A DNA stretch of 64,000 bases. It comes from Streptomyces sp. HUAS 15-9. Lineage in GTDB: Bacteria; Actinomycetota; Actinomycetes; Streptomycetales; Streptomycetaceae. Numbering within the stretch: the stretch's first letter is position 1; every line of letters begins with the position of its first letter. Shown here piece by piece: positions 51,763-55,821 of the stretch. Where the stretch lies: positions 1,550,001-1,614,000 of the forward strand of contig NZ_CP106798.1 of NCBI RefSeq assembly GCF_025642155.1. Direction: 5' to 3'. Under the pieces are notes generated by a model. It was given only the letters and a program-made list of their open reading frames with translations, had not been told where the DNA came from and ran no database searches. The translations under genes were made by a program, and so were the position numbers.

Positions 51763-52049
51763 GGCTCACCCGATGCCCGGGGCCCGACCCGACCTCGGCG
51801 CCTCACCCGACCTGCGCGGGTCCCATCCGATGGCCACGGGCCGCTCCTGACCTCCGCGGGCCTCAGCCGATGTCCAGGGACCCGACCCCGGCGTGCCTCA
51901 CCCGATGTGCGTGGGCCAGACCCGACCTCCGCCGGACTCATCCGACATCCGCAGGACCCCACCTCGGCATGCCTCACCCGGTGTCCGCGGGCCTCACGCG
52001 ACATCCGCGCCCGACCCAACCTCCGCACGCCTCACCCGATGTCCGGCGG
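51763..52049. repeat. Array of about 15 degenerate 19-20 bp repeats
   Basis: Plus-strand units follow a pattern like CCTCACCCGATGTCCGCGGG, alternating with CCCGACCTCCGC-type halves; two units make about 39 bp. I count about 15 copies, some shortened. The last copy enters priA and encodes its final residues (PPDIG and stop). On the minus strand most copies contain CATCGGGTGA or a variant, the exact end of priA. The array thus seems to have grown from the 3' end of priA. It fills the gap between the HTH-like gene and priA. Confidence 0.65.
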
Positions 52050-54185
52050 ATCGATCCGTACCCGTACGGCCTCCCCGCTCCCGCTCCCCCGCACCATCCG
52101 TGCGGCCTGCGCCGACTTCAGCGCGGACGCCAGTGCCGCCCCGCTTCCCGGCGGCACCCGCACGAGTGCCCGCTCCCAGTGCTCCCCGGGCGGTGGCGCC
52201 CCGGTGCGCCGCGGTCGCCCTGGGAGGGTGACCGGCATCGGCACGGGGCCCAACACCTCCGCGTCCGACGGCAGTTCGACCATCTGAAGAAACTCCGCGA
52301 CGGCCTCCGCCGTGCCCGACACCGCGGCCATCCGGGACACCGGTGGAAACCCCAGCTCGGCCCGCTCGGACAGCTCCCGCACCGCGTGTCCGACGGGGTC
52401 CCAGCGCACCAGCGCCTGCACCGGTCGTAGCGTCGGCTCGGCGACGACCACCACGGTGCCCCGCTCCCCCTGCGGCCGTACGAGCGCACAGGCACCGATC
52501 CAGCGGCGCAGCGCGTCCTCCTCGGCCCGCAGGTCGGGACGGCCCAGCATGGCCCAGCCGTCCAGCAGCAGGGCCGCCGCATAGCCGCCCTCGGCGACGG
52601 GTTCGGCCCCGGGTGTGCTCACGACCAGCGCGGGAGTCCCCGGCACCGTGTCCAGCACGTGCTCCCGCCCCGAGGTGCGCACCGGTACGGCGGGAAAGAC
52701 CCGCCCCAGTTCCTCGGCGGTCCGCCGCGCCCCCACGACCTGGGCCCGCAGCCGGAAGCCGCCGCACTCCGGACAGTGCCAGGCGCCCTCCTCGCGCCCG
52801 CACCACCCGCACCGCAGCGCCCCCGCGTCCTGCGCCTCCAACGGCCCGGAGCAGTGCCGGCACCGCGCGGGCGCCCGGCACTGGGCACAGGCCATGCGCG
52901 GCACGTACCCCCGCCGGGGCACCTGTACGAGGACCGGCCCGTGCCCCAGTCCCTCCCGGACCGTCTGCCAGGCGAGCGTCGGCAGCCGGGCGGCACGGGC
53001 GGCCTCGTCCCGGGCGAGGTCGCCGTCCCCCACGGTCCGCACGAGGGGCGCGGTCCGCCGCACCTGCTCCCGGCCCGCGATCAGGGGGCGTGCCCAGCCG
53101 TTCTCCACGAGCTGCGCGGCCTCCACGGTGCAGCTCCAGCCGCCCAGCAGGAAGCCGCACCCGTCCAGGGCCGCGCGCAGCAGGAGCACATCCCGGGCGT
53201 GCGGCTGCGGCGCGTGCTGCTCGCTGTGACTGTCGTCCCCGTCGTCCCAGATGGCGACCAGTCCGAGGTCCCGCACGGGCGCGAACATGGCGGCCCGCGT
53301 GCCGACGACGGCCCGTACGGAACCACGGCGCACGGCGAGCCACTGCGCGTACCGCTTCTCGGGCCCGGCGTCGGCGGTGAGCAGCGCGTGGCGTCCCTCG
53401 CCGAGCAGCGCGGTCAGCGCCGCGTCGACCCGGGCGGCGGCCCGTCCGTCGGGTACGACGACGAGCGCGCCGCGTCCCGAGGCGAGCGTCGCCGCGACGG
53501 CCCGCGCGAGCTCCTCACTCCACTCCGGTCCGGGCAGCGCGTTCCACACGGCACGGGGCGCACCCCCCGAGGCCAGCGACTCGACGAAGGCCGGCCCGTG
53601 CTCGTACCGGGACCAGGACCCGGCGTCGGGCGCCGCCGGTGGGGGCAGTGGCGGGGGCGAGGGGCGCTGCTCGGCTCGCGCGCTGCGCGGCGGCACGGCC
53701 AGTTGCAGCACATCGGCGAGGCTGCCCGCATACCGGTCGGCGACGGCCCTGGCCAGGCCGAGGAGCTCCGCGCTCAGCACGGGTTCGGGGGACACCACCT
53801 GGGCGAGCGCGGCCAGCGGCCCGGAGTAGTCGGACTCGGCCCGCCGCTCCACGAGGAACCCGTCGATGAGCCCGCCGCCCTCGCGGCGCCCTTCCCGCAC
53901 GCGGTGCCGACCGGCCCCGAACCGCACGCGCACGCGCACTCCGGGCTGGGCCTCGGCGTCCAGTTCCTCGGGCACGGCGTAGTCGAAGTACCGGTCGAGG
54001 TGGAGCACGCCCTTGTCGACCAGCACCCGTGCGACGGGCAGCTCCTTGGCGAGCGCGGCCCCCCGCCAGGTCCGGGGCTTGGCCCGCGGCACCTTGGCGC
54101 CCCGCACGCTCTCCCGGATGAGCGCGAGCTGCTCCGGCGGCGCCCCTTCGGCCCCGCCGCCCCCCTGCCCGTTCTCGCTGCTCAC
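52032..54185 (-). CDS. priA: Primosomal protein N' (PriA), ATPase-degenerate
   Basis: A 717-residue PriA-type replication restart protein. The N-terminal DNA-binding domain spans about 45-150 and the helicase-like core about 210-560. The normal Walker A GxTGSGKT is missing (ALPGPEWSEELA at the site), and the DEEH box is replaced by IWDDGDDSHS. The eight zinc-binding cysteines are kept (CAQC, CRHC, CGWC, CPEC). This is usual for actinobacterial PriA, whose helicase activity is doubtful. The GTG at 54185 has a weak ribosome site. The gene ends inside a repeat array. Confidence 0.9.
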   Translation of the reverse strand: MSSENGQGGGGAEGAPPEQLALIRESVRGAKVPRAKPRTWRGAALAKELPVARVLVDKGVLHLDRYFDYAVPEELDAEAQPGVRVRVRFGAGRHRVREGRREGGGLIDGFLVERRAESDYSGPLAALAQVVSPEPVLSAELLGLARAVADRYAGSLADVLQLAVPPRSARAEQRPSPPPLPPPAAPDAGSWSRYEHGPAFVESLASGGAPRAVWNALPGPEWSEELARAVAATLASGRGALVVVPDGRAAARVDAALTALLGEGRHALLTADAGPEKRYAQWLAVRRGSVRAVVGTRAAMFAPVRDLGLVAIWDDGDDSHSEQHAPQPHARDVLLLRAALDGCGFLLGGWSCTVEAAQLVENGWARPLIAGREQVRRTAPLVRTVGDGDLARDEAARAARLPTLAWQTVREGLGHGPVLVQVPRRGYVPRMACAQCRAPARCRHCSGPLEAQDAGALRCGWCGREEGAWHCPECGGFRLRAQVVGARRTAEELGRVFPAVPVRTSGREHVLDTVPGTPALVVSTPGAEPVAEGGYAAALLLDGWAMLGRPDLRAEEDALRRWIGACALVRPQGERGTVVVVAEPTLRPVQALVRWDPVGHAVRELSERAELGFPPVSRMAAVSGTAEAVAEFLQMVELPSDAEVLGPVPMPVTLPGRPRRTGAPPPGEHWERALVRVPPGSGAALASALKSAQAARMVRGSGSGEAVRVRIDPPDIG

Positions 54186-54263
54186 GCTTGCATTCTTACC
54201 AAAAGCCACTGACAACCGAAGCCCGCCCGAGATCAGCCCGGCCACGGCCGCCGTCAGGCGCTG

Positions 54264-54351
54264 ACTTCTGCCTTGGGCCACTCGGCCATACCGGTCCAGG
54301 ACCGGCAGCGGGATTCGAACCCGCGTGGAAATCATTCCGGAAGTTCGAAGT
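54264..54351 (-). ncRNA. tRNA-like element in circularly permuted order
   Basis: Minus strand, in 5' to 3' order. ACTTC (54351-54347); a 22-nt variable-arm region with GGAA/TTCC; T arm GCGGG-TTCGAAT-CCCGC (54324-54308); TGCCGGTCC (54307-54299); one nt; GGACCGGTA (54297-54289); TGGCCGAGTGGCCCAAGGC, a Ser/Leu-type D arm (54288-54270); A; GAAGT (54268-54264). The GGACCGGTA/TGCCGGTCC stem pairs over 9 bp (one G-U), and GAAGT/ACTTC close an anticodon-like stem. All arms fit a type II cloverleaf but with 3' half first. U33 and CCA are absent, so normal decoding is unlikely. It lies 79 nt upstream of priA, possibly in its 5' UTR. Confidence 0.5.
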
Positions 54352-54520
54352 ACCCGTGCCCCTCGCACCGGGCGGCGTCGATCTCCCGAGATCCGGTCGA
54401 CAGCGGTCTGTGCAAAGCCAGTTTCACCGCACGCGCGAAGCGCACTCCACCGAAGTAACCGCGGTCATCGCACCGGGAGATCACCACCGTACGGGCGCGA
54501 CGCAGGCGCCCGCGAGCCAT
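54332..54520 (-). CDS. Possible small protein upstream of the tRNA-like element
   Basis: A 62-codon frame from ATG at 54520, basic at the N-terminus and ending GHGYFELPE. Third-position GC is about 75%, below the genes around it, and there is no clear ribosome site. The last codons overlap the anticodon-like and variable arms of the tRNA-like element. It could be a real small gene, a decayed one, or chance. The stretch 54186-54612 otherwise has only the tRNA-like element and the metK terminator. Confidence 0.25.
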   Translation of the reverse strand: MARGRLRRARTVVISRCDDRGYFGGVRFARAVKLALHRPLSTGSREIDAARCEGHGYFELPE

Positions 54521-54557
54521 TTACCCGGCCGGTGAATCGGTCGGGTGGTGAAACGCC

Positions 54558-54612: not shown

Positions 54613-55821
54613 CTACAGCCCCGCGGCCTTGCGCAGGGCGTCCACGCGGTCCGTGCGCTCCCAGGTGAAGTCGGGGAGCTCGCGGCCGAAGTGGCCGTAG
54701 GCCGCGGTCTGGGCGTAGATCGGGCGGAGCAGGTCGAGGTCGCGGATGATGGCGGCCGGACGGAGGTCGAAGACCTCGTCGATCGCCTTCTCGATCTTCT
54801 CGGGCTCGACCTTGTGGGTGCCGAAGGTCTCGACGAACAGACCGACCGGCTCGGCCTTGCCGATCGCGTAGGCGACCTGGACCTCGCAGCGGGAGGCCAG
54901 GCCCGCGGCGACGACGTTCTTGGCGACCCAGCGCATCGCGTACGCCGCCGAGCGGTCCACCTTGGACGGGTCCTTGCCGGAGAAGGCGCCGCCGCCGTGG
55001 CGGGCCATGCCGCCGTACGTGTCGATGATGATCTTGCGGCCGGTCAGGCCAGCGTCACCCATCGGGCCGCCGATCTCGAAGCGGCCGGTCGGGTTGACCA
55101 GCAGGCGGTAGCCCTCGGTGTCCAGCTTGATGCCCTCGTCGAGCAGCGCCTTGAGCTCCGGCTCGACGACGAACTCACGGATGTCGGGGGCGAGCAGCGA
55201 CTCCAGGTCGATGTCGCTCGCGTGCTGCGAGGAGACGACCACGGTGTCGAGGCGGACGGCCTTGTCACCGTCGTACTCGATGGTGACCTGCGTCTTGCCG
55301 TCCGGGCGCAGGTAGGGGATCGTGCCGTTCTTGCGGACGTCCGACAGACGCTTGGACAGCCGGTGCGCCAGGAAGATCGGGAGCGGCATCAGCGTCGGCG
55401 TCTCGTCGGACGCGTAGCCGAACATCAGGCCCTGGTCGCCCGCACCCTGCTTGTCGAGCTCGTCGTCGTCACCCTCGACCCGGGTCTCGTACGCCGTGTC
55501 CACACCCTGGGCGATGTCCGGGGACTGCGCGCCGATCGACACCGACACACCGCAGGAGGCGCCGTCGAAGCCCTTCTTTGAGGAGTCGTAGCCGATCTCC
55601 AGGATCGTGTTGCGGACCAGCGTCGCGATGTCCGCGTACGTCTTGGTCGTGACCTCACCGGCCACGTGCACCAGGCCCGTGGTGATCAGTGTCTCCACGG
55701 CGACCCGGGAGGTCGGGTCCTCGCGCAGAAGCGCGTCGAGAATGGCGTCGCTGATCTGGTCAGCGATCTTGTCAGGGTGACCCTCGGTCACGGACTCCGA
55801 GGTGAACAGTCGACGGGACAC
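54613..55821 (-). CDS. metK: S-adenosylmethionine synthetase
   Basis: It makes SAM from methionine and ATP. The 402-aa length is exactly typical. Motifs: [16 protein letters not shown] (about 19-34) near the ATP site, [12 protein letters not shown] (about 123-134), and [16 protein letters not shown] (about 277-292), the P-loop-like and K+ binding signature. The GTG at 55821 follows GGGAG and gives the standard start (M)[16 protein letters not shown] supply matters to secondary metabolism in Streptomyces. The frame continues upstream only as non-homologous sequence. Confidence 0.98.

Follow-up and report, generated by a model that had tools for sequence, protein, structure and literature searches.

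The window, that is, the whole 64-kb stretch of Streptomyces DNA analysed here (genome G000), carries metK and priA on its minus strand and, between them, two adjoining RNA elements. A sequence-only reading had noted at 54264-54351 the parts of a tRNA in circularly permuted order (T arm, then acceptor, then D arm), and each part was found on the minus strand where it had been placed. The element proved larger than first noted, extending over 54222-54377. A related RNA without the tRNA module, which was aligned with 19 relatives, occupies 54381-54482, 3 nt upstream of the tRNA-bearing RNA. Both elements were scored with two covariance models: R1, built from an alignment of 32 Y RNAs (A1), four of them from the priA locus, and R2, built from 24 Streptomyces rsr-linked (TROVE/Ro60) Y RNAs with the window elements left out. 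The priA-locus members of R1 were the reason for limiting R2 to rsr-linked sequences. Read along the minus strand, the features are the following:

54613 to 55821, minus strand: metK, the upstream neighbour (start approximate)
54519 to 54523, minus strand: A-tract TAAAT upstream of the -10-like element, common to many Y RNA arrays (putative)
54486 to 54491, minus strand: putative -10-like element TACGGT of the tandem's promoter
54381 to 54482, minus strand: second Y RNA, a tRNA-less member of this family (R1, 51.3 bits; R2, 42.7 bits, E = 3.4e-7)
54222 to 54377, minus strand: YrlA-type Y RNA of 156 nt, consisting of an outer helix and a permuted tRNA-like module (R1, 90.0 bits; R2, 65.5 bits, E = 5.2e-12)
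54364 to 54376, minus strand: 5' strand of the outer helix, including GGTGCG (54369-54364), a candidate Rsr-binding helix
54347 to 54352, minus strand: TACTTC, invariant in 32/32 sequences of A1
54351 to 54347, minus strand: ACTTC, formerly taken as the 3' strand of the anticodon stem
54327 to 54338, minus strand: class II-like variable-arm hairpin GGAA-TGAT-TTCC (GGAA 54338-54335, TTCC 54330-54327)
54308 to 54324, minus strand: T arm GCGGG-TTCGAAT-CCCGC, with 100% of cells paired in 19 priA-locus relatives
54289 to 54307, minus strand: acceptor-like 8-bp hairpin with CUG triloop (3' strand 54307-54300, 5' strand 54296-54289)
54270 to 54286, minus strand: D arm GCCGAGTGGCCCAAGGC
54269, minus strand: single A
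54268 to 54264, minus strand: GAAGT, formerly taken as the 5' strand of the anticodon stem
54222 to 54234, minus strand: 3' strand of the outer helix, GATCTCGGGCGGG
52032 to 54185, minus strand: priA, the downstream neighbour, with its GTG start at 54185, 36 nt past the Y RNA

Two further structured RNAs were detected in the window, namely a Streptomyces-metK RNA (RF03063; 55826-55942, minus strand, 123.5 bits) upstream of metK and an FMN riboswitch (RF00050; 16261-16391, minus strand, 98.9 bits).

A strict search for permuted tRNAs (5-bp T stem, 7-bp acceptor, 3-bp D stem and U8) returned a single site in the window, both strands included, and none in 150 dinucleotide shuffles of it; the earlier observation is confirmed. 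ARAGORN found no tRNA in the window, and folding stability was unremarkable (z of -1.24 and -1.53). The evidence for the element is comparative rather than a matter of folding stability. Family identity, conserved structure, tandem arrangement and co-distribution of the family with TROVE/Ro60 (rsr) genes are shown below.

Some of the pairings first proposed were revised by these comparisons. An acceptor helix is present, although the 9 bp originally counted are best read as an 8-bp hairpin (UGCCGGUC/GACCGGUA, triloop CUG), for which 98.0% of cells are paired among the 19 relatives. The proposed extension of the closing stem by GGTGC and GCGCC did not hold: GGTGCG, invariant in A1, pairs instead in the outer helix with 54222-54234, and the GCGCC-like stretch of the relatives falls within a predicted hairpin after the D arm (17/19 cut segments). 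The ACTTC/GAAGT closing or 'anticodon' stem is possible in the window, but it does not define the family, because TACTTC is invariant throughout A1 even in sequences without a GAAGT partner; among the priA-locus relatives the motif is found in 17/19. Folds of cut segments, taken without a shuffle control, predict a variable-arm hairpin with 3 bp or more in 19/19 priA relatives and, in 17/19, a further short hairpin that follows the D arm.

The family to which the element belongs was recognized through its homologues. In a DNA search of 101 Streptomyces genomes, G040 and G024 matched nearly over the full length at the corresponding locus, other genomes gave shorter matches, many of them to the priA start alone, and a second site appeared in the window's own genome, 118 kb from the contig start. 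The related sequences display a common frame, i.e., GGTGCG, then TACTTC, the permuted tRNA module and GATCTC-like ends. One homologue locus (L035) yielded two sub-threshold matches to the Rfam YrlA family (56.1 and 45.4 bits), and the gene downstream, in L035 as well as in L036, encodes a TROVE/Ro60 protein. Further, 30 TROVE loci (L037-L066) were fetched, and a home-made finder located a permuted module in 22 of them; the permuted order is the architecture of the Y RNAs lying beside rsr genes in the same and in other genomes. The rsr-derived model R2 recovers both window RNAs, and its next match in the window reaches 14.4 bits. In ten public Streptomyces contigs with an exact motif of this form, one of them probably from the genome of G024, R2 scored in 10/10 and found both RNAs in 5; S. 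rhizosphaerihabitans and S. phaeochromogenes are among the species that carry the pair. The Rfam model itself (RF02553) gave 17.7 bits on the window, below its gathering cut-off of 69, which was reached by none of 14 matches in 10 rsr loci (best, 55.9) nor by the two in L035.

The structure derived from A1 comprises 39 pairs, 27 of which show changes on both sides. Pairing holds in 89.8% of its cells, as compared with 76.6% in shuffles, and double changes are seen in 153 cells (53.8 in shuffles); none of 500 shuffles was as good on all five measures, and slid structures reached at most 47.3% of cells paired. The outer helix (90.9% paired, with changes on both sides in 6/10 pairs) and the T, acceptor and D arms (100%, 95.3% and 96.1%, respectively) are well kept, the weakest part being the anticodon-like helix (53.3% and 80.7%). 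When the 19 priA-locus relatives were considered in an alignment fitted to R1, 91.3% of cells were paired (86.3% in shuffles) and 43 double-change cells were counted (16.9 in shuffles), neither value being equalled in 500 shuffles, whereas the both-side-change pairs (37/500) and further pair types (35/500) were unexceptional; the outer helix stood at 92.1% and the inner part of the anticodon-like helix at 45.7%. Compensatory changes, proposed beforehand as a check, are thus present both at the priA locus and across the family, and it is the stems that are kept, while the lengths of the element vary out of frame. A protein-coding explanation was rejected because the 19 priA copies differ in length (145-161 nt); moreover, PriA homology starts at residue 1 in 28/30 loci, and at residues 10 and 17 in the other two.

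Taken together, these conserved stems with their compensatory changes support the earlier suggestions of an independent small RNA and of a structural tRNA mimic, and the tRNA-shaped part most likely belongs, as its tRNA-like module, to a bacterial Y RNA, the partner class of the Ro60-like protein Rsr. In our main reading, to which we assign a probability of about 0.78, an rsr-unlinked ('orphan') YrlA-type Y RNA stands right behind a second, tRNA-less Y RNA and would act as an extra isoform tethering or gating Rsr. Since only 3 nt separate the tandem Y RNAs, a single transcript is likely: one promoter upstream of 54482 would give a two-RNA transcript, subsequently cut into two Y RNAs. By analogy with other bacteria, the outer helix with GGUGCG, which presumably resembles the Ro60 site of animal Y RNAs, may bind Rsr, a ring protein whose gene lies elsewhere in the genome. 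The permuted module, with its closed acceptor and no anticodon loop, may likewise be the effector end: it would dock on the exoribonuclease PNPase and could also be recognized by tRNA-modifying enzymes. The window Y RNA would in this manner tether or gate Rsr for the decay of structured RNA.

The analogy derives from YrlA. In one study, its ends pair into a stem by which Rsr is tethered, and its tRNA-like domain, a substrate of DusA and TruB, is the part that binds PNPase (PMC8394870); the tethering of Rsr to PNPase through paired ends and tRNA-like domain is reported from other bacteria (PMC8394870, PMC6181284). By this comparison, the window RNA keeps both ends of the YrlA design, and could bind Rsr and PNPase alike. 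With YrlA (RF02553) in its complex with Rsr and PNPase (RYPER), the element shares the end-pairing helix and the T, acceptor and D arms, and its Streptomyces homologues lie beside rsr; it differs in its distance from the nearest TROVE match, in scoring below the Rfam cut-off, and in having a class II-like variable arm and the predicted hairpin after the D arm mentioned above. Two adjoining Y RNAs are likewise described for the rsr-yrlBA-rtcBA operon of S. Typhimurium (PMC9879122, PMC7790460), whereas the metK-priA pair stands away from rsr. Among the literature matches listed, no title dealt with Y RNAs in Streptomyces.

The distribution of the family follows that of TROVE/Ro60 genes. TROVE was present in 60 of the 101 Streptomyces genomes, and R1 matches above 80 bits occurred in 55/60 genomes with TROVE and in 0/41 without it; all 102 such matches were in TROVE-bearing genomes, 87 of them no more than 5 kb from TROVE and the other 15 elsewhere. 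For a sample of 197 genomes from the class, some of them included in both samples, the corresponding figures were 22/25 and 0/172. These genome-wide counts refer to a limited number of candidates scored per genome under strict filters. The window genome has two TROVE genes, the nearest TROVE match lying about 504 kb from the priA-side Y RNA; two full Y RNAs stand upstream of one of these genes, and the other is preceded, at about 190 nt from its matched start, by a weak short match (L068 4098-4176, about G000:C1:8776097-8776175, minus strand; R2, 33.8 bits, E = 1.1e-5). Elsewhere, at L102 (G066:C1:1791656-1791988), a broken rsr remnant with a stop adjoins a surviving tRNA-less Y RNA.

For the metK-priA locus, a BLAST search of 392 Streptomyces genomes gave matches in 96, and the best 30 places, one per genome, were examined. 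In these best 30 of 96, priA lies beside the element in 30/30 and metK in 29/30. When the loci are sorted by how long their R1 match is (E up to 0.01), the tRNA-bearing form is found in 21/30, the tRNA-less form in 22/30, and both in 13; one match of 118 nt, in L130, was left unclassed. TROVE is present in 26 of these 30 genomes and absent in G316, G159, G333 and G322. The last has the short Y RNA form only, and the other three, out of 21, keep the tRNA-bearing form without an intact rsr. Co-distribution is therefore strong and not absolute. A protein search for rsr recovered a 62-residue C-terminal piece in G333 and, in G159, 38 residues interrupted by a stop; G316 and G322 gave no match.

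These genomes bear on a different, unlikely explanation, in which the priA copies are of Y RNA origin and are now tRNA mimics free of Rsr that bind PNPase, tRNA-modifying enzymes or another partner. It is favoured by the retention of the tRNA-bearing RNA in G316, G159 and G333, and by the fact that, beyond the priA elements, R1 finds in the four TROVE-less genomes only partial matches of the tRNA-tandem type and one match of 35.8 bits (G316). However, TROVE accompanies the tRNA-bearing form in 18/21 genomes, the loss of rsr may be recent, and the priA copies keep the outer helix at the 92.1% pairing given above.

The priA-side copy also turns over, and tandem, single, fused and remnant forms are found. 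By eye, a short RNA alone was seen in G091, a fused form in G007 and remnants in G009 and G063, where R2 had no match, while in L118 (G049) 49 nt from the 5' part of the priA Y RNA are directly and exactly duplicated. The loss of the D-arm and acceptor matches in close relatives, named beforehand as grounds for refutation, is partly seen, the element being lost or decayed in some relatives and intact in others. Such a series (tandem, short-only, tRNA-bearing-only, fused, duplicated and remnant) would be expected if Y RNA loci were repeatedly duplicated and lost, with the window copy as a functionless late intermediate; the compensatory changes across the 19 priA copies, the promoter-like elements and the well-paired stems of the window copy make this quite improbable.

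The arrays also have a common promoter-like layout. In 49 of the known arrays (24 at priA, 14 unlinked, one of these beside a broken rsr, and 11 at rsr), TANNNT, searched without a control, was found near the 5' end in 39. AAA or AATT lies 28-45 nt above it in 34 of these 39, as compared with 2.1% of random stretches, in a count that drops the 10/49 arrays without TANNNT, five of them being priA copies that lack the short RNA. The Y RNA arrays at priA, rsr and elsewhere hence appear to have a putative promoter of a common type. The earlier proposal of a cis-regulatory priA leader, sensing through its tRNA-like fold, agrees with the position of the element close upstream of priA in 30/30 loci compared (36 nt in the window). 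Nevertheless, we consider it very unlikely: the promoter-like layout belongs to the array itself and is common to unrelated loci, the family also occurs at rsr and at scattered places, and G009 and G063 retain the sequence immediately before priA even though the Y RNA there is a remnant.

Such scattered places include a second unlinked Y RNA in G000 (L031 2531-2673, minus strand; G000:C1:118530-118672), 118 kb from the contig start and with a Glu-like D arm. Similar Y RNAs occur in other genomes, and one lies on the 678-kb Streptomyces plasmid NZ_CP109366.1 (L256 3954-4091; R2, 100.7 bits) with no annotated gene beneath. No match was found in phages. Among the neighbours, picked by a GC3 rule, of 15 loci where the match is unlinked or weak, nothing was shared beyond two general enzyme families. 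In D-arm likeness, the priA copy is nearest to Ser/Tyr, the 118-kb orphan to Glu(ttc) (18/20) and the rsr-linked L066 to Leu(gag) (18/19); the identity of the mimicked tRNA is a hint only, because same-genome tRNAs for other amino acids often match equally. ARAGORN tRNAs overlap R1 Y RNA matches in 4/50 loci (L033, L105, L110 and L111, the last with a weak match of 49.8 bits), called as Asp, Lys, Cys and an unknown type, and are likely false calls.

Permuted tRNA genes of algae and archaea, and two-piece tmRNA, display a like order of tRNA parts. Partial R1 matches at model positions 31-116 also occur, and the one checked corresponds to tandem tRNA-Asn genes 4 nt apart (L101 1057-1208, G000:C1:2806556-2806707, minus strand), which have a permuted-tRNA look across their junction; such junctions are a possible route by which permuted modules arise. 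Even so, we give practically no credence to a permuted gene whose product decodes after circularisation, or to a relic of two tandem tRNA genes as formerly suggested, despite the part order and the tRNA-Asn pair: the acceptor strands are joined by the CUG triloop alone, with no removable linker, CCA, U33 or anticodon loop, the covarying outer helix would be left unexplained, and the element is a Y RNA by covariance model, its order being that of the rsr-side Y RNAs. A conventional tRNA gene was likewise rejected, as ARAGORN finds none and the anticodon loop and CCA are absent.

An rsr-unlinked YrlA-type Y RNA with a tRNA-less partner is of moderate interest, which would be higher if independence from Rsr in some lineages were true. 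A wider view, possible though doubtful, is that Streptomyces has dispersed Y RNAs with interchangeable tRNA-like modules, a shared promoter type and rsr-unlinked loci, the metK-priA copies having become Rsr-independent in some lineages, as Y RNAs without Ro60. The Streptomyces Y RNAs examined score below the Rfam gathering cut-off and some are overlapped by ARAGORN tRNA calls; therefore, even in well-studied genomes a common RNA family can go unnoticed. With unlinked copies, tandems with and without the tRNA module, and genomes in which rsr is broken, a role of the tRNA-like module apart from Rsr becomes testable.
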